Below are positions 12,012 to 22,443 of a stretch of 22,484 bases of DNA, one piece after another (position 1 is the stretch's first letter; each line of letters starts with the position of its first letter). Source of the stretch: a virus. The notes under the pieces are model-generated. The model did not search any database and was not told the DNA's origin. It was given only the letters and a program-made list of their open reading frames with translations. Both the position numbers and the translations under genes were made by a program. The stretch spans positions 1 through 22,484 of IMG/VR virus record IMGVR_UViG_3300030060_007748; one strand, written 5' to 3'.

Positions 12012-13253
12012 ATGAAACAAATTAAAGAAATAATATTAAATAAGACTATCGCAGTTGAAGAAAATCGTGAGTTCAAAAGAGGTTTAGACAGACTTAATAA
12101 AAAGTTAAAAAAATTAAATCTACCTGAAACAGAAATAATTAGTAAAGAATATAAATTAACTGTGCATGAAGATTCAAGAGGAAGAAGAGAAATTTGTGAA
12201 TTTCATTATAAAATTAAAACACAAACTCAAATTAATCCTGATTATGAATTATTAGGTGTTGTTGAAAAAGTTGGTAAAGATATTTGGGTACAAAGAAGTT
12301 TTCAAGAAGATGTAGGTGATTTAACCCCAAACCATAAATTAACTTGTAGTCATTGTAATAAAAAAAGATTAAGAAAAAGATATTTTGTTTTTAAGAAAAA
12401 CAATGAATTAGTTTATATTGGTTCTGATTGTCAAGATCATTACATAAGTTTTGATCCAAGTTTTTTTAATTTTTGGGATACTGATTCTCCTAACATTGAA
12501 GTAGGTGGTTCAGGAAGTGATTTTACTTTTCCATTAAATAGATTTTTAAATATCGTTAGAAAGATTGTAAAAGAAGATGGTGAATATATCTCAGTAGCTA
12601 AATCAGTAAGTATGTATCAATTAATGAATGAAGATGCTACCAATGATGAAATAAATGCTCTTGGAGATAAATTTGCAACCAAAAAAAAGGTTGACGATTT
12701 TATTGCTCGTTCTTCTTTTGAAGAACTTTCTAAGATTTCTAATAATGATAAAGAAATTAATGAAATTATTACTACTGTTAAAAATGATTTATCTGATGCT
12801 AAATCTGATTATGAAATTAATCTTAAAAATGGTTTATCAACTGAATATGTTGTTGCTAAATCAAGAGGGATAGTAGCGAGTGTATTTGCTTATTTAGATA
12901 ATAAAAAAAGAAAAGAAGAATTAGACAGAATTAAAGCTGAAAAAGAAGCACAAAAAGATAGTTTAAAGCATATTGGGACTGTTGGGGAAAAGCATGTTCT
13001 TGATGTTAAACTTGTAGATAGAAGATGGATAGATAATCCATTTGGTGGTTCATATTTGTGGACACTAACTACTAAAGATAATCAAATTATTAAGTCATTT
13101 AGTAATTCTTCGATATTTGATTTTTTCTACAATGATGAAAAAGAAATAATTAAAGACAAATTTATTAAGTTTAATGCAATAATAAAAAAACATGGCGAAT
13201 ACAATGGATTTAAAGAAACTTTAATAAAGGTTTCTAGTAGGAAACCTATTTAG
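12012..13253 (+). CDS. Zinc-motif and OB-fold protein, probable early/nucleic-acid-binding
   Basis: A 413-residue protein. Residues 112-143 hold a zinc-type motif, C112-x2-C115 then C140 with H143 (CSHCNKKRLRKRYFVF, then IGSDCQDHY), a pattern I recognise from plasmid and phage proteins of the form CxHCxxxRxRxxxYxV...GxxC. Residues 295-318 are a charged helix. Residues about 319-413 form an OB-like beta domain ending in KFNAIIKKHGEYNGFKETLI, a motif typical of small OB domains. It probably handles single-stranded nucleic acid, but the substrate is unknown. It is the first gene of the rightward island, with promoter P1 and a good ribosome site. Its DNA looks even more AT-rich than its neighbours (by eye). 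Confidence 0.7.
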   Translation: MKQIKEIILNKTIAVEENREFKRGLDRLNKKLKKLNLPETEIISKEYKLTVHEDSRGRREICEFHYKIKTQTQINPDYELLGVVEKVGKDIWVQRSFQEDVGDLTPNHKLTCSHCNKKRLRKRYFVFKKNNELVYIGSDCQDHYISFDPSFFNFWDTDSPNIEVGGSGSDFTFPLNRFLNIVRKIVKEDGEYISVAKSVSMYQLMNEDATNDEINALGDKFATKKKVDDFIARSSFEELSKISNNDKEINEIITTVKNDLSDAKSDYEINLKNGLSTEYVVAKSRGIVASVFAYLDNKKRKEELDRIKAEKEAQKDSLKHIGTVGEKHVLDVKLVDRRWIDNPFGGSYLWTLTTKDNQIIKSFSNSSIFDFFYNDEKEIIKDKFIKFNAIIKKHGEYNGFKETLIKVSSRKPI

Positions 13254-13261
13254 GAGAAAAA

Positions 13262-13330
13262 ATGGAAATAGTCTTAATTTATATGATCTTAGGTTTAGCT
13301 GTTTATTTTTGGGAGGGTAAACAAAAATGA
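13262..13330 (+). CDS. 22-residue membrane micropeptide
   Basis: The frame MEIVLIYMILGLAVYFWEG plus KQK starts 8 bases after the preceding stop, with AGGAG 5 bases before the ATG, and ends with a TGA that overlaps the next ATG (ATGA). It is almost entirely one membrane helix with a short basic cytoplasmic end. Ribosome site plus ATGA junction make it more likely to be translated than not. Its role is unknown; its in-frame GGGAGGG supplies the ribosome site of the next gene, so coupling may be a purpose. Confidence 0.55.
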   Translation: MEIVLIYMILGLAVYFWEGKQK

Positions 13331-13566
13331 CAAAAAAATATATACACATAAATCAACATAAAATAAGAAGTAATTTAAAAAATAATTTAAATGAACCTGT
13401 AATAACAGTCAAAACAAGTAAACAAAATATCTACGGACACGAAGTAACTATCCTCGGTGAATCAAAAGTATTATATGGAGGGAATAACAAACCAATATTA
13501 AGTTGTGGAGCTAGAGTAGTTATAGAAACACATAGCGATGTTTTAGTAGATGGAAAAAAAATTTGA
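13327..13566 (+). CDS. 79-residue conserved protein of unknown function
   Basis: A small protein beginning MTKKYIHINQHKIRSNLKNN, followed by PVITVKTSKQNIYGHEVTIL and SCGARVVIETHSDVLVDG. I recognise this family as frequent in marine phages but without known role. It looks like a single small beta domain with a basic, helical N-terminus. Start is fixed by GGAGGG and an ATGA overlap with the preceding micropeptide. It lies in the rightward island with a nucleic-acid-binding-type protein, so an early or regulatory role is conceivable. No membrane segment or catalytic motif is seen. Confidence 0.65.
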   Translation: MTKKYIHINQHKIRSNLKNNLNEPVITVKTSKQNIYGHEVTILGESKVLYGGNNKPILSCGARVVIETHSDVLVDGKKI

Positions 13567-13602
13567 ACCATTTACAATCCTAAATCGTTTAATAAGTAGA
13601 TA

Positions 13603-13636
13603 ATGTGTTGACATCACATCTAAAATACTATATAAA
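13603..13636 (+). promoter_or_regulatory. Sigma70-type promoter P2 with operator-like dyad
   Basis: TTGACA (13608-13613), 17 bases, TATAAA (13631-13636). The 17-base dyad ATGTGTTGACATCACAT (13603-13619) is nearly palindromic (only the centre and two symmetric bases break it) and covers the -35 box. It shares a 24-base and a 16-base identical block with P1 (11959-11982 and 11985-12000), the blocks being 3 rather than 2 bases apart here. Confidence 0.75.
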
Positions 13637-13668
13637 TAAGATAATATTAATTTAACGGAGAAAAAAAA

Positions 13669-13929
13669 ATGAAAACAAAAACTGAACTATTTGAACAATT
13701 TGATAAAGATATTTTAGATTTTTATAAAGGAATGGTCATTTCTTTAAAAGAAAATCATAATCAAACACCTGACAACCAAAGCGAAGACTGTATGTCCATT
13801 GAAGATTATACAGTAAGAGCTATTTGGCTAAATAAGGCATGTGGAATAAGCAAATGTTTTGAGGAACATTATACTGTTATAAAAGAAAAGTTTTATCAAT
13901 ATGGATTAAAATTAATAAAAGCTAATTGA
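13669..13929 (+). CDS. 86-residue acidic protein of unknown function
   Basis: A helical protein (MKTKTELFEQFDKDILDFYK...) with three cysteines (EDCMS, NKACGISKCFEEHY) and no signal peptide. I do not recognise a family. It has its own promoter P2 and an ACGGAG ribosome site 8 bases before the ATG, and is followed 10 bases later by the strong bidirectional terminator. A separately controlled small gene of this size at the end of the island could be a regulator or anti-host protein, but that is inference from arrangement only. Confidence 0.6.
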   Translation: MKTKTELFEQFDKDILDFYKGMVISLKENHNQTPDNQSEDCMSIEDYTVRAIWLNKACGISKCFEEHYTVIKEKFYQYGLKLIKAN

Positions 13930-13985: not shown

Positions 13986-14897
13986 TTAAGCTGCACCAGG
14001 TGAGCCAAAAATTCCTCTTGGATCAGAGAATCCAAAAGAGTATCTCTCTCTCGCCTTAAACCTAACATTACCAGTATCAAAGTCTCCTTCAATAGCAGTT
14101 TTGATAGGACTTCTAACGAATTGTTTCATTCCGTTAGGTGCATCCGTCATAATAAAGAAAGCATCAGTATCTGTCAAATAATGATTTACTCTATAGCCTT
14201 GTGGCATCATGCCCATAGAAGCCATAGCATTAATGTCATTATCAGCAGTGCCAACTCTCTGAGGTGATCTTAAAATTCTTTCAGCAGTAAACTGAAGTTC
14301 TTTTGGAATAATCAGTTTAACACCCTGCATCGCAATTTTTAGACCTCTCTCATCAACAAATGCAGCAATGTCAATTAGAGATTGCTCCAATGAAGTTTCT
14401 GATAAATCTGCCGCAGTCGATAATTCGTTTGCGAATGTACCACCAGTAGCGATTGGATGAGCTGTTGAACAAAGTTCTACACCATCACCACCAGCAAAGC
14501 TTGAATTAAATGCATTGTTAAGTACATTTGCAGCTTTCACTTGTTTAGTGTTTGCCATAGAACGAGCCAAAGCTCTTGTGTATCTTGCAGCTAATCTATC
14601 ATAAAGATTATCTTCAATTGCTTCCTCAGTGATAGCAAACGCCATAGCGATTGTTTCGTGAGTGTATCTCGCAGTGAAAGATTCTGTAGCTTGGTCAAAA
14701 GTGACTGCACTACCTTCTTCTTTTACTGGAGCACTACCGAAACCACTAAGCATTACTTCTTCTTCGAAAGCTCTATCAGATGCTTCAGATGTAAAGACTT
14801 CTGCGTGTTCGTTTTCATAACGATTGTATTCTAAGCCAAAGAGAGCATTTAAACCAGGCTCTAGCTCTTTGACCAATTGTGATCTTGAAATAGCCAT
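13986..14897 (-). CDS. Major capsid protein
   Basis: A 303-residue protein with the layout of an HK97-like capsid subunit of the type found in marine podoviruses: helical N-terminus (SQLVKELEPGLNALFGLEYN), an E-loop-like region (TARYTHETIAMAFAITEEAI), a long spine-helix-type segment (LYDRLAARYTRALARSMANT) and the C-terminal ARERYSFGFSDPRGIFGSPG. The TKQVKAANVLNNAF and CSTAHP pieces are typical. It assembles the icosahedral head with the scaffold encoded upstream. It is the last gene before the terminator and has AAGGGAG before its ATG. The fold is inferred, but gene order (portal, scaffold, capsid) supports it well. Confidence 0.85.
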   Translation of the reverse strand: MAISRSQLVKELEPGLNALFGLEYNRYENEHAEVFTSEASDRAFEEEVMLSGFGSAPVKEEGSAVTFDQATESFTARYTHETIAMAFAITEEAIEDNLYDRLAARYTRALARSMANTKQVKAANVLNNAFNSSFAGGDGVELCSTAHPIATGGTFANELSTAADLSETSLEQSLIDIAAFVDERGLKIAMQGVKLIIPKELQFTAERILRSPQRVGTADNDINAMASMGMMPQGYRVNHYLTDTDAFFIMTDAPNGMKQFVRSPIKTAIEGDFDTGNVRFKARERYSFGFSDPRGIFGSPGAA

Positions 14898-17025: not shown

Positions 17026-17457
17026 CTAGAATAATGCGAGGATGTCCTCTGGTTTATTTATTGTTCCAATGATTTCATCATCGTTCAAAATACGATGTTC
17101 ACCATATTTCGTTTTAAATCGAGCTCCAGTATATCGTCCATAAACGACAAACTGTCCCTCTTTACACCAAGCTCCTGTAGGAAATTTATTTTTATCCTTG
17201 TAACAAAGATCTCCCATCTTAACAACAAAACCTACAACAGTGGTAAGTTGTTGAGTTTCAAGTGTCTTCTCTGTTAAATAAAGACCACCTTTAGTTTTTT
17301 CTTTTGGTTGATAAGGTCTAACTAAAAGTCTATAGCCTACTGGTTTGGGTAATACTTTAAGATATTGTTCCACTTCTTTTGCACCTTTTGGAACTAAAGG
17401 TTCGTCCTCATCATTCGTTGGAACGACAAGTTTTTTTTCAGGTTTGATCAATGTCAT
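17026..17457 (-). CDS. groES: GroES-like co-chaperonin
   Basis: About 143 residues with a GroES fold signature: PVGYRLLVRPYQPKEKTKGG, a mobile-loop element KTKGGLYLTEKT where GGLYL takes the place of GGIVL in bacterial GroES, VVGFVVKMG, GQFVVYGRYTG and a C-terminal DDEIIGTINKPEDILAL. It would cap the host GroEL and help fold phage proteins, most likely the capsid protein. A 40-residue polar extension precedes the barrel. Three in-frame ATGs occur at 17466, 17463 and 17457; GAGAGG is 0, 3 and 9 bases away respectively, so 17457 is chosen. It overlaps the preceding gene by 20 bases. Confidence 0.85.
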   Translation of the reverse strand: MTLIKPEKKLVVPTNDEDEPLVPKGAKEVEQYLKVLPKPVGYRLLVRPYQPKEKTKGGLYLTEKTLETQQLTTVVGFVVKMGDLCYKDKNKFPTGAWCKEGQFVVYGRYTGARFKTKYGEHRILNDDEIIGTINKPEDILALF

Positions 17458-17644
17458 CAACATCATCCTCTCTATTTTGCAGGTCTTTAAGATCCTGAAG
17501 CACAGCTTCTAAAGCTGCGAGCTTGCCCTTAGCATAATGTAGATTCTCTAGTTTGTCTATACCATAGCATATATGATCTTTAGTCTTATCAATTTCTTTT
17601 CTAATATAATGTCGAATTGTTTGTATTGTTTCTATATCAAGCAT
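17438..17644 (-). CDS. 68-residue coiled-coil protein
   Basis: A short helical protein (MLDIETIQTIRHYIRKEIDK, then GKLAALEAVLQDLKDLQNRE) ending in an acidic stretch EDDVDDIDQT. It looks like a small coiled coil. Similar small proteins occur next to co-chaperonin and scaffold genes in marine phages; function unknown. Its end overlaps the start of the co-chaperonin, and its sequence AGAGAGG acts as that gene's ribosome site. It starts at an ATG that overlaps the end of a 40-residue basic ORF. Confidence 0.6.
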   Translation of the reverse strand: MLDIETIQTIRHYIRKEIDKTKDHICYGIDKLENLHYAKGKLAALEAVLQDLKDLQNREDDVDDIDQT

Positions 17645-17759: not shown

Positions 17760-17883
17760 ATCTTTCTACTAATACAGGATTTTTTACCACAGGTGATTTA
17801 TATTCTCTAGTTCTTTTTTTAGGAAATTTGTAATCATCTCTTCTTTTATGGCGTATAACTATTGCCTTTTCCTCTCCAGTCAC
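17698..17883 (-). CDS. 61-residue basic protein with GTG start
   Basis: The open frame extends to a GTG at 17931, but a second GTG at 17883 follows a strong AGGGGAG site about 6 bases upstream, so that start is chosen. The protein reads VTGEEKAIVIRHKRRDDYKF, then KSPVVKNPVLVERYAKETPQ, and ends in lysines. I do not recognise it. The gene overlaps the end of the Cys-rich exported protein by 38 bases. The high K/R content is like other small proteins here. Confidence 0.45.
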   Translation of the reverse strand: MTGEEKAIVIRHKRRDDYKFPKKRTREYKSPVVKNPVLVERYAKETPQTSNNLYQKNKKKV

Positions 17884-18172
17884 GCTTATCTCCCCTAGGT
17901 ACTTGTATTTGTTTTTCACACGCAAAATCACTGTGTGTATTTATAACCATCTCTTCCTTATCAGTACAAACATAAAAACATTTTACGGAATCTTCGCCTA
18001 AAAAAGGCTCAACTCTTTTTTCTTTTGTTAAACGACATGTCACAAAATATTGATTTCTTTCATCATACAACTGACCTTTTCCTGACCATTTGTAATTTTT
18101 TGTAAAAGCAGAGTCACAAAAAAATAATGGGAGCAAAAGAGCTCCCATTAAATTATTTTTCAGCACAGGCAT
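17846..18172 (-). CDS. Exported Cys-rich protein, unknown function
   Basis: A 108-residue protein with an N-terminal signal peptide (MPVLKNNLMGALLLPLFFCD, probable cleavage near DSA-F at 20-23) and a mature part with four cysteines (C46, C65, C69, C85) that could form disulfides in the periplasm. The segment VKCFYVCTDKEEMVINTHSD is the best-defined part. It is not a typical lipoprotein or spanin. The ATG at 18172 lies 20 bases inside the PqqA-like ORF and has a weak ribosome site; an ATG at 18148 is an alternative. The hydrophobic core of the signal is encoded by the terminator hairpin and its T-run. Position after the PqqA-like peptide may be coincidental. Confidence 0.6.
   Translation of the reverse strand: MPVLKNNLMGALLLPLFFCDSAFTKNYKWSGKGQLYDERNQYFVTCRLTKEKRVEPFLGEDSVKCFYVCTDKEEMVINTHSDFACEKQIQVPRGDKRDWRGKGNSYTP
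18118..18150 (-). terminator. Intrinsic terminator after the PqqA-like ORF
   Basis: On the minus strand a perfect 10-base inverted repeat, TAATGGGAGC (18150-18141) and GCTCCCATTA (18134-18125), with a 6-base loop, is followed by seven T residues (18124-18118). It begins 2 bases after the stop codon of the 24-residue ORF. It lies inside the signal-peptide codons of the next gene, so it can act as a terminator or attenuator of operon A. Confidence 0.75.
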
Positions 18173-18227
18173 AACTGTTAATCTCTAGACCAACAGAAAT
18201 TTCTGTAATTATTGGTTTTGACCACAT
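18153..18227 (-). CDS. pqqA: PqqA-like PQQ precursor peptide
   Basis: A 24-residue ORF with a strong AAGGAG site 7 bases before its ATG. It starts MWSKP and contains EISVGLEINSYACAE. PqqA peptides are about 22-29 residues, often start MWxKP, and carry a conserved Glu and Tyr three residues apart (E-x3-Y); here these are E15 and Y19, preceded by G13. In PQQ synthesis PqqE joins that Glu to Tyr, with PqqD as peptide chaperone, and the product becomes the redox cofactor of PQQ dehydrogenases. No PqqB, C, D, E or F is seen in this window, so host enzymes would have to process it. It is followed at once by an intrinsic terminator. The call rests on motif recognition in a very short peptide. Confidence 0.72.
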   Translation of the reverse strand: MWSKPIITEISVGLEINSYACAEK

Positions 18228-18277
18228 AATTATCTCCTTAGTTTGAAGTGCTGGTTATCTTACTGATCGCAGTCCAC

Positions 18278-18294: not shown

Positions 18295-18663
18295 CTATTT
18301 TCTAATCTTTGCAATACCTTTTAATCCAAAGGATCCTGCAATCGAAGCTAACATGCCATAAGATATCCAATCAGGACAATCGTTCTTTAAAAATAAAAAC
18401 CCTTGTTGCATATAAGGTTGAAGTGCAGGAAAAAATGAGGCAAAAAGTATAAAAATAAAGGTAAGAGTCCAAGCTTCGTCTTTCCACGAATTATCTGATG
18501 CTTTCATAGCTGATTCATCCCAATTACCATCTTTTTCAATTTTGGTTTTTGTCGCTTCTAATTTAGTTAACTCAACTTGACTTTTAAGTTGTGCTTTTTT
18601 TTGTTTGCCCTCTATCCATGTTTTTGCCAAACTTGCAACAGGACCTAAAATTGCTGTAAACAT
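18295..18663 (-). CDS. Holin-like membrane protein
   Basis: A 122-residue protein. An N-terminal amphipathic segment (FTAILGPVASLAKTWIEGK) and a charged helix (20-45) are followed by DNSWKDEAWTL and two membrane segments at about 65-82 (WTLTFIFILFASFFPALQ) and 99-117 (WISYGMLASIAGSFGLKGI). This layout, especially NSWKDE before the first membrane helix, is known from the '3TM holin' family of marine phages and gene transfer agents (family name from memory). It would permeabilise the inner membrane and let the M15 endolysin reach the wall. The gene overlaps the preceding methyltransferase gene by one base (TAATG). Confidence 0.65.
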   Translation of the reverse strand: MFTAILGPVASLAKTWIEGKQKKAQLKSQVELTKLEATKTKIEKDGNWDESAMKASDNSWKDEAWTLTFIFILFASFFPALQPYMQQGFLFLKNDCPDWISYGMLASIAGSFGLKGIAKIRK

Positions 18664-19969: not shown

Positions 19970-20066
19970 TTTTGTTCTCCACTTTTATCCATTGACTCCA
20001 TGTCGGTGTAAGTTGCCAATGGTAATTATATTTATAAACATCTTTTTCTTCTTTTTTACCTTTCAT
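19962..20066 (-). CDS. 34-residue micro-ORF between portal and next gene
   Basis: From an ATG at 20066, 11 bases inside the end of the portal gene, the frame reads MKGKKEEKDVYKYNYHWQLT then PTWSQWIKVENKNE and stops 8 bases inside the following gene. AAGGA lies 8 bases before the ATG. It fills the 86-base gap exactly, and tryptophan content (W17, W23, W26) is high for chance. Function unknown. Confidence 0.5.
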   Translation of the reverse strand: MKGKKEEKDVYKYNYHWQLTPTWSQWIKVENKNE

Positions 20067-22443
20067 CTTTTGCTTCCTTATCAAATTCTTTAAGAACCTT
20101 GGCTCGTGCAACATCTAACTTCTCATCAGCAACACGGATTCTTTGTATTGAAGAGTCCTGAGCGTCTTCTCTTTTCATTTTTTCCAAGTCTATCTTTTGT
20201 TCGAATTCATTTGTTTTTCTATCTGTATCACTCATAAATTCACCAACTTTTCGTTGCATATCCATAGCTTTTAAATCAATCTCTTGTTGTTTTAATTGAA
20301 TTAATGGGTCTTGTTTATCAGCATCATTAATTCTTTCAAGTTCTTGTAGCTCAGCAGTCAACGCAGCCACTCTTTCTGCAACCATAGACTCCGTATAAGT
20401 TTGATACGCTTCCATATTAACCTTAGCTAACTCCTGAAACTCAGGCATTTTCTCCATAATCTGTAATACCTGACCACGAGCCTTGAACGATAAGTGTTCA
20501 GAAATATGAGCTTGCAGTAAAGCATAAACCATAGGGTTGATTTGTACCATGCGTGTGCGAATAAAAGAAGAATGAGCCATGATATGTGCATCATGACTTT
20601 GTAAAGGAAACGCTTTTGGTACTTTCATCTGTAAAGCTCTCGCATTTTCAATCGCTGGATCTAAAGGTTGTGGTACTTCATCAGGTTTTAACAACGCATC
20701 GACCTGTTTTGTACCTAAAGCTTCATAAACTCGTCTATACGCCTCTCGAACATTGTGAATTTGAGGGTTCGACTGTGCAATCTGTAATTGTGTCTGTGCA
20801 AGGGTGACTTTTTGTGCCATAGAAAAGACATTAGGGTCAGCAACAGGTATAACATCAACCTCTTCACCAAAATCAGCGACTTTTACGAAACGATTACCTC
20901 CATAAACAGCATATGGATACAAAGGTGGTAAATATGTCGAGAAAACTTTGGCTAATAACCTAAATTCTTGTCGCATAGCATAGTAACAACGCTTGTGAAT
21001 AGCACTCATGACCCTTGAGCCACGCTCCATGAGAGCAATTGTAGTGCCCACGGCTCTATTTTGTGTGTCATTGCCTATTGCCATGTCAGCAATTGACGCA
21101 AAACGCTGTCCTGCAGCTACGCAATATTGTAATAAACTAAATAATGTGGCATCAGGACCTTTAAATGGTAAAAATTGAAACTGATCTTTAATATTTCCAC
21201 CAGGTGCATCAACATCTCTGAACTCACCAGGTTGAAATGGTTGATCTTCATCCCTGATTCTAATACCACGAGACTTAAAACCAGCAGGGAGATTGCTTAA
21301 AGTCCCTGCATCAAGTAATTGTCTTAACGCTGCAGTAGCCGTTTTACTTAAACCACCAATCATATGAATTAAACCAAAGCCATAAAACCCTAAACCTGGT
21401 AAAAATTTGAAATGTACAAAATATTCTTTGCGTTTATAGGTTTCATCAAAAGGCTGATAGTTTCTATATATACTTAAAATTTGTGAAGAGCCTTCATCAA
21501 TTGTTACGATGTAAGGAACTTTAACATTTTTCGATGCGTCTTCGATTTCATACTCTTCTAAATCTAAATCAACATGCATTTCTAAAATATTAAATTGATA
21601 ATCTTTATCTGCTGACGGACTTACACCTTCTATTTCTTGATATTTAGATTCAATTTGATCATCATCCATTTGAGACGGAGCAATTTCTACATCTCTATAA
21701 AAACCACTTCTTTGTTTTTTCAACAATTCATTCTCGCTCATTTTAAGCACATGTGTAATTCTTTCACAATCTTTTAAATCGGTTGCGTAATAAGGAACAA
21801 CTAAATCTTCAGCGTGTACAAATTTACTTACAGGTCTTTGCATAATGTCATCGAAGTATATTTTTTTAAATGCTGAACCTGTTAAAGGTAAATAAAATAA
21901 TAATTGATCAAAGTCAGGTGTATATTCTTCCATCTGATCCATGAGCATATAATTCATAAACTCTTTTACTCTTTGTGCTTGCTCTTCTCTTTGAAAATTT
22001 ATTTCACCAACAACTTGAGTTCTTACAGGACCATCACTTGGTAATAATTCTTTATAAGCTTGTGCTTGAAATTGTGTCACGGCTTCTGATAACAACGGAT
22101 GAGTTACACCACTTGCACCTTTAAAAGGTTGTCCTTCATCATTGTATTTAAATCCTAATAAATCTAATCCTGAAGTATAGCCTTTTTCCCAATCCCCTCT
22201 TGACTCTTTATCTTTTTTGTAATCAGTGACTAATTCATTTGCAATACGAGACAAAACTCGTTCATCAAGATCAATGGCTACATTTTTGTAAAATGTTTCC
22301 AATAATTGTTGTTGAGCGTCAACGACTTCTTCAGGACTCACCTCTTCCTCAGTATCAACAACTTCGACTTCGAGATCTTGTTTTTTTTCTTCGTTAGCCT
22401 CTTCCTGATTCTCTTCAGATTGAGTGTTTTTTTCTACAGCCAT
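20056..22443 (-). CDS. Portal protein (P22-like)
   Basis: A 795-residue protein, in the size range of P22-type portals. Residues 1-40 are acidic and disordered. The core includes KGASGVTHPLLSEAVTQFQA (about 108-128), LPLTGSAFKKIYFDDI (185-200), GFYGFGLIHMIGGLSKTATA and the APGGNIKDQFQFLPFKGPDA loop, a set typical of podovirus portals. The C-terminal 110 residues are a helical barrel or coiled coil rich in Q, E and K. It forms the dodecameric ring at one capsid vertex through which DNA is packaged. The ATG at 22443 follows AAGGA. A terminase gene is expected upstream but lies outside the window. Confidence 0.9.
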   Translation of the reverse strand: MAVEKNTQSEENQEEANEEKKQDLEVEVVDTEEEVSPEEVVDAQQQLLETFYKNVAIDLDERVLSRIANELVTDYKKDKESRGDWEKGYTSGLDLLGFKYNDEGQPFKGASGVTHPLLSEAVTQFQAQAYKELLPSDGPVRTQVVGEINFQREEQAQRVKEFMNYMLMDQMEEYTPDFDQLLFYLPLTGSAFKKIYFDDIMQRPVSKFVHAEDLVVPYYATDLKDCERITHVLKMSENELLKKQRSGFYRDVEIAPSQMDDDQIESKYQEIEGVSPSADKDYQFNILEMHVDLDLEEYEIEDASKNVKVPYIVTIDEGSSQILSIYRNYQPFDETYKRKEYFVHFKFLPGLGFYGFGLIHMIGGLSKTATAALRQLLDAGTLSNLPAGFKSRGIRIRDEDQPFQPGEFRDVDAPGGNIKDQFQFLPFKGPDATLFSLLQYCVAAGQRFASIADMAIGNDTQNRAVGTTIALMERGSRVMSAIHKRCYYAMRQEFRLLAKVFSTYLPPLYPYAVYGGNRFVKVADFGEEVDVIPVADPNVFSMAQKVTLAQTQLQIAQSNPQIHNVREAYRRVYEALGTKQVDALLKPDEVPQPLDPAIENARALQMKVPKAFPLQSHDAHIMAHSSFIRTRMVQINPMVYALLQAHISEHLSFKARGQVLQIMEKMPEFQELAKVNMEAYQTYTESMVAERVAALTAELQELERINDADKQDPLIQLKQQEIDLKAMDMQRKVGEFMSDTDRKTNEFEQKIDLEKMKREDAQDSSIQRIRVADEKLDVARAKVLKEFDKEAKDER

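Follow-up and report, generated by a model that had tools for sequence, protein, structure and literature searches.

A pqqA gene in the late module of a marine phage

The window analysed here is the whole stretch of viral DNA, 22,484 nucleotides in length, and equals a complete virus contig of IMG/VR. Its features around the gene of interest and in the surrounding late module are as follows.

18153–18227, minus strand: pqqA, encoding the predicted 24-residue PQQ precursor MWSKPIITEISVGLEINSYACAEK with crosslinkable E15 and Y19 (PF08042, TIGR02107, pN/pS)
18234–18239, minus strand: Shine-Dalgarno sequence AAGGAG, 6 nt 5′ of the pqqA ATG (read from the sequence)
18125–18150, minus strand: intrinsic-terminator-like hairpin, 10-bp stem followed by TTTTTTT, beginning 2 nt 3′ of the pqqA stop (−18.8 kcal/mol, z −5.8)
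18295–18663, minus strand: upstream neighbour, 122 aa, probably membrane- or holin-like by its appearance, phrog_2524 of unknown function; anchor of the pqqA slot
17846–18172, minus strand: downstream neighbour, 108 aa, signal-peptide-like N-terminus, start overlapping the last 20 nt of pqqA (ORF call)
20056–22443, minus strand: portal protein (phrog_1216; 66.6% identity to Pelagibacter phage HTVC023P; tree)
17026–17466, minus strand: GroES-like co-chaperonin of the late module (PF00166, phrog_3188)
13986–14897, minus strand: major capsid protein of the late module, same strand as pqqA (PF25209)

Translation of 18153–18227 on the minus strand yields 24 codons and a stop. The initial annotation had described a PqqA-like peptide of this length, preceded by AAGGAG and carrying G13-L-E15-x3-Y19, and this description proved accurate: the core G13-L-E15-I-N-S-Y19 is present, and the profile search that had been proposed as a check was passed with both curated PqqA models. 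The peptide scored 33.3 bits with the Pfam profile PF08042 (E = 4.6e-8; curated cut-off 21.1) and 39.1 bits with the NCBIfam equivalog model TIGR02107 (E = 4.6e-10; cut-off 20). A six-frame scan of the record with PF08042 returned pqqA as its sole match (E = 1e-8), and the same scan of 14 control genomes gave zero matches. The peptide thus exceeds the family-model cut-off, shows the Glu/Tyr spacing and is encoded by a short ORF that stands alone and is preceded by a ribosome-binding site of its own. A chance ORF is ruled out by the scores with the curated models and by the selection described below, and on sequence evidence the ORF is a genuine phage-encoded PqqA. It has the length, the MWxKP start and the G-x-E-x3-Y core in common with the family (PF08042/TIGR02107) and nearly equals a bacterial pqqA type in sequence, but differs from bacterial PqqA in being phage-encoded, within a structural-gene module and away from pqqBCDE.

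The Glu and Tyr three residues apart supply the atoms of PQQ. The initial annotation had made its reading depend on whether the reading frame and E-x3-Y are kept in related phages, and both are conserved there. All 18 PqqA finds that were made with the model, in 50 related records, cover model positions 1–19; the pattern scans described below demanded E and Y and hence give no independent evidence for the conservation of these two residues. Three features on which the initial annotation was silent are the location on the minus strand, the start of the next ORF (18172–17846) inside pqqA, whose last 20 nt the two share, and the hairpin after the stop.

The minus-strand module runs in the order portal, methyltransferase, 122-aa protein, pqqA, 108-aa protein, GroES-like protein, scaffold-like protein, major capsid protein, tail proteins and endolysin, such that pqqA lies on a bona fide viral genome among its structural genes (portal, major capsid protein, GroES, endolysin, tail). 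The 108-aa downstream protein had no family match in PHROG and Pfam profile searches. Amid the minus-strand late genes, a cluster of plus-strand ORFs (413, 79 and 86 aa) occupies 12012–13929, and its 413-aa member matches phrog_2319, whose function is unknown. We assign the window phage to the HTVC023P-like group. The Pelagibacter phages HTVC023P and HTVC027P, both isolated on SAR11, have the portal, capsid and GroES module and the gene order in common with it, but HTVC023P, unlike the window phage, is without a PqqA match.

The placement of the gene in a late operon, as had been claimed from the window, was borne out more widely: among the matches listed, pqqA points the same way as the portal, major capsid, scaffold or GroES genes in all 118 cases that could be tested, not every one of them independent. 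Within the HTVC023P-like group, it is found in the portal–GroES interval, on the upstream side of the portal gene, or 147–173 nt downstream of the major capsid gene (nine loci among the matches listed).

An accessory gene under purifying selection

Two pattern scans of the viral collection found at least 119 and at least 120 stretches, and by our own rough arithmetic chance alone would produce less than one match to the pattern across the entire collection. There are two large families among the matches listed, type A (...E-I-x-V-G-L-E-I-N-[SC]-Y-A-C-A-E) and type B (MWTKPxATEMRFGFEVTMYVMNK). Positions of type A that were left free in the pattern are conserved nonetheless, with W2 and N17 present in 96/96 and C21 in 95/96 distinct genes among the matches listed. 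At three or more shared ORFs, the pqqA-bearing contigs among these matches form 46 groups, five of them large; a criterion of one shared ORF links 283 of 289 contigs, and the count of independent acquisitions is therefore inexact. Predicted phage PqqA is thus widespread, in host-like types and at several genome positions.

When the 122-aa neighbour rather than the peptide is used as the anchor, 46 related loci carry pqqA in the slot that follows it and 36 do not, a few contigs being counted twice. Slots without pqqA are empty or are filled by a different small ORF or by a lysozyme- or endolysin-like gene, or else the 108-aa gene follows at once. For this reason, we class pqqA as accessory within the late module. 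Where it is present, it is under strong purifying selection, with a pN/pS of 0.053 as compared to 0.171 for the neighbouring gene at the same loci. In a portal tree, the window falls into a clade carrying its PqqA type, with several losses, while the NCYACAE type occupies a separate portal clade and the methylotroph type others. This tree has some very long branches and was built from rows gathered through PqqA patterns, so that it shows that the type follows the phage clade, but not how frequent the types are.

Unannotated pqqA in cultured phages

Type B PqqA is encoded by the cultured Methylophilales phages Venkman, MEP301, MEP401, MEP402 and Melnitz (four strains) and by Methylophilaceae phage P19250A. 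The gene is unannotated in all nine records (MT375522.1, KX815270.1, MW452941.1, OP830906.1, OP830907.1 and MZ577095.1–MZ577098.1). The suspicion that an ORF this short would escape most gene callers was well founded: no feature is annotated over pqqA in five of the nine records, and in the remaining four the place is taken by a called hypothetical protein, which in the one Melnitz record inspected (MZ577097.1) is antisense to pqqA. In four of the six cultured-phage loci that we read, the M(K)WTKP-type ORF is intact and preceded by a purine-rich site, and the loci of P19250A and MEP301 read WTTPAATEMRFGFEVTMYVMNK and WTSPKATEMRFGFEVTMYVMNK, respectively.

In a collection of 50,697 phage records, PqqA queries matched nothing beyond these cultured methylophages, an uncultured phage from freshwater and two entries labelled "Acinetobacter phage". 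When the window peptide and a type A2 peptide were run against this collection with tblastn, neither gave a match, so that no deposited phage with type A came to light; a Pseudomonas-type PqqA query matched no Pseudomonas or Klebsiella phage in it. MEP431–434 and other named Methylophilales phages were not among the PqqA matches, and the collection may not contain them. One match, "Acinetobacter phage MD-2021a" (CAKLQF020000010.1), was rejected, as it is bacterial chromosome by content, its pqqA being accompanied by ppk, pqqBCD and a gene for a radical SAM protein. The collection thus contains a mislabelled bacterial contig, the larger one of that assembly. The Venkman pqqA DNA gave no useful match among plasmid sequences. 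The published descriptions of MEP401/402, MEP301 and Venkman make no reference to PQQ or to pqqA as phage-encoded, and our literature search found no paper that combines OM43, phage and pqqA.

Candidate host

The C-terminus NSYACAEK is also found on peptides encoded by genomes of a single marine alphaproteobacterial family, which includes a record titled HIMB59-MED-G10. Of the genomes checked with this ending, 20 of 21 belong to the MED-G10 family, and the remaining one is a Verrucomicrobia MAG that is probably mis-binned. The window PqqA equals the MED-G10-type host PqqA at 20 of 23 residues (W to K), and the segment EISVGLEINSYACAEK, which includes E15 and Y19, is identical between the two. 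In this family, pqqA is present in 31 of 32 genomes (0.9–2 Mb in size) with one to five copies, and a PQQ-dependent alcohol dehydrogenase is above cut-off in 20 of the 32. Both pqqE and pqqC exceed their cut-offs in 22 of 26 PqqA-bearing alphaproteobacterial genomes, mostly of the MED-G10 family; in the majority of the genomes tested, the two genes are no more than about 3 kb away from one of the pqqA copies. Because the family combines a near-identical PqqA with pqqC/pqqE and a PQQ-alcohol dehydrogenase, a MED-G10/HIMB59-like alphaproteobacterium is most likely the host of the window phage. It counts against this assignment that HTVC023P, the nearest relative in culture, is a SAR11 phage and is without pqqA.

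We also sought a host link through infected cells and MAGs. A portal search in the 32 family genomes gave one phage contig of 56% identity, which carries no pqqA and may be a binning artefact; among 385 genomes of the class, all portal matches were distant, and no single-cell genome tying the window phage to a host was found. Contigs of pqqA phages in MAGs of Maricaulis (NZMJ01000006.1) and Flavobacteriaceae (PANU01000007.1) are most likely mis-binned and were not accepted as host links.

The streamlined genomes of the MED-G10 family have up to five scattered pqqA copies, mostly outside the pqq operon. At the single locus inspected by eye, with two orphan copies, no PQQ dehydrogenase was evident alongside.

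A recurrent hairpin 3′ of pqqA

A terminator search of the region found 2 sites where 0.4 were expected, the two being both strands of the site after pqqA. Among the matches listed, and counting distinct downstream sequences, a terminator-like hairpin follows pqqA in 29 of 59 cases for type A1 and in 50 of 119 for type B, as compared to 5% after other ORFs; the signal is weak for type A2 (4/52, p 0.07). The median energy of the first 45 nt 3′ of pqqA is −13.9 (A1) and −11.6 (B) versus −3.9 kcal/mol, and the enrichment persists with one value per phage cluster (p about 1e-6). None of the six cultured-phage loci read satisfies the strict terminator rule. Host pqqA copies also show a 3′ hairpin, half of them at or below −9 kcal/mol. 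The recurrent 3′ hairpin is thus a trait of pqqA across different phages.

In the window, the first part of the 108-aa ORF, with its start and signal-like codons, spans the end of pqqA and the entire hairpin. Expression of this ORF would therefore need read-through of the terminator, and, given this overlap, part of the hairpin conservation in the window clade may have another cause. In Methylobacterium, pqqA gives rise to a short, abundant pqqA-only transcript.

Possible role of a phage-encoded PQQ precursor

As a homologue of a host metabolic gene that is retained by selection, phage pqqA has the attributes of an auxiliary gene. We propose, with a probability of roughly 0.75, that it is an auxiliary metabolic gene that maintains or raises the supply of precursor to the host PqqD/PqqE in late infection. 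The peptide would be made in quantity from the structural-gene transcript, and the 3′ hairpin would either shield the short pqqA mRNA or raise its abundance over that of the downstream message. Host PqqD and PqqE would then crosslink E15 to Y19, and the remaining host enzymes would complete PQQ, so that the PQQ-dependent alcohol dehydrogenase of the periplasm may stay charged and respiration may continue as host expression falls.

PqqA is destroyed 1:1 in PQQ synthesis. Host enzymes made before infection would persist and turn over, while the peptide must be made afresh. Since one PqqA is consumed per PQQ whereas the enzymes turn over, supplying the peptide rather than the enzymes makes sense. 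The assertion that the phage contributes substrate only stands as far as it could be tested: neither PqqE nor a PQQ-alcohol dehydrogenase was above cut-off in 50 pqqA-bearing phage records, which fits this assertion, the window itself being a 22-kb fragment of a phage that may carry further pqq genes elsewhere. From the literature, purified PqqA in a cell-free extract is converted to PQQ at 70–80% (PMC9851590), and overexpression of pqqA or pqqAB raises PQQ (PMC7936290). A methylotroph has five pqqA copies (PMC9851590), among them orphan copies that likewise stand alone outside the pqq operon and add precursor dosage, with the difference that the window copy is virus-borne.

The initial annotation had left two roles side by side, supply of precursor and a decoy for PqqD/PqqE, of which the first fits better and the second is less likely. 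As a decoy, the phage peptide would occupy these proteins and block host PQQ synthesis, which could redirect host metabolism, and it agrees with this that the phage encodes only the peptide that PqqD/PqqE bind. However, E15, Y19 and their surroundings equal those of the putative host peptide throughout the segment described above, and host-like sequences are kept in different phage lineages. A decoy would also be expected to show changes at the crosslink residues in some lineages, and the model-based finds in related records show none. We thus regard inhibition as unlikely and favour supply, because the E/Y region is host-identical and because dosage is in keeping with the host type, the gene position and the expression signals.

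A different job for a PqqA-derived peptide, be it as a RiPP or regulator matured by another radical SAM enzyme or as an unmodified peptide, was considered in view of the C-terminal YACAE, whose cysteine lies outside PQQ chemistry and is so strongly conserved in type A (95/96 distinct genes among the matches listed). The same C-terminus is found on host pqqA copies, which makes it a trait of host PqqA too, and the peptide matches a model at equivalog level, such that this reading is quite improbable. That pqqA is a functionless bystander acquired by chance from a host is very hard to maintain, for although the presence of the gene at its one slot is variable, its pN/pS is low, it is spread over many phage groups and several positions, its 3′ hairpin recurs and its Shine-Dalgarno sequence is intact.

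Relation to known viral pqqA and implications

Virus-encoded pqqA is already known. The Lake Baikal virus population VP_266, described in 2020, carries pqqA together with methanol dehydrogenase and was proposed to feed PQQ-dependent methanol oxidation of its host (PMC7678222), and in 2026 pqqA was listed among the auxiliary genes of reservoir-sediment viruses (PMC13188868). As in the window, PqqA is thus on a viral genome in both cases. The Baikal virus differs in having methanol dehydrogenase, whereas no dehydrogenase or pqq enzyme was found here, and by their descriptions both are set apart from the window phage, which is marine and HTVC023P-like, with an alphaproteobacterial PqqA type. What seems to be new is that the gene is spread through many phages in host-like types, that cultured phages carry it unannotated, that its position and hairpin recur, and that a marine phage of the HTVC023P-like group has it.

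Taking these observations together, we lean slightly towards a more general view, in which phages of PQQ-dependent (methanol- or alcohol-oxidising) aquatic bacteria would repeatedly have captured host pqqA alone and placed it on the late transcript with a 3′ hairpin, as precursor-only supplementation, with the pqqA type doubling as a host label. Should the peptide function in the proposed way, viruses would steer the oxidation of methanol and other alcohols by abundant, streamlined aquatic bacteria through a gene of about 24 codons that gene callers skip. The PqqA type could help to assign hosts to uncultured phages. The presence of pqqA in cultured phages of OM43 and LD28, whose hosts can be grown, makes the proposal directly testable. 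Furthermore, surveys of auxiliary genes should cover RiPP precursors below the usual length limits.
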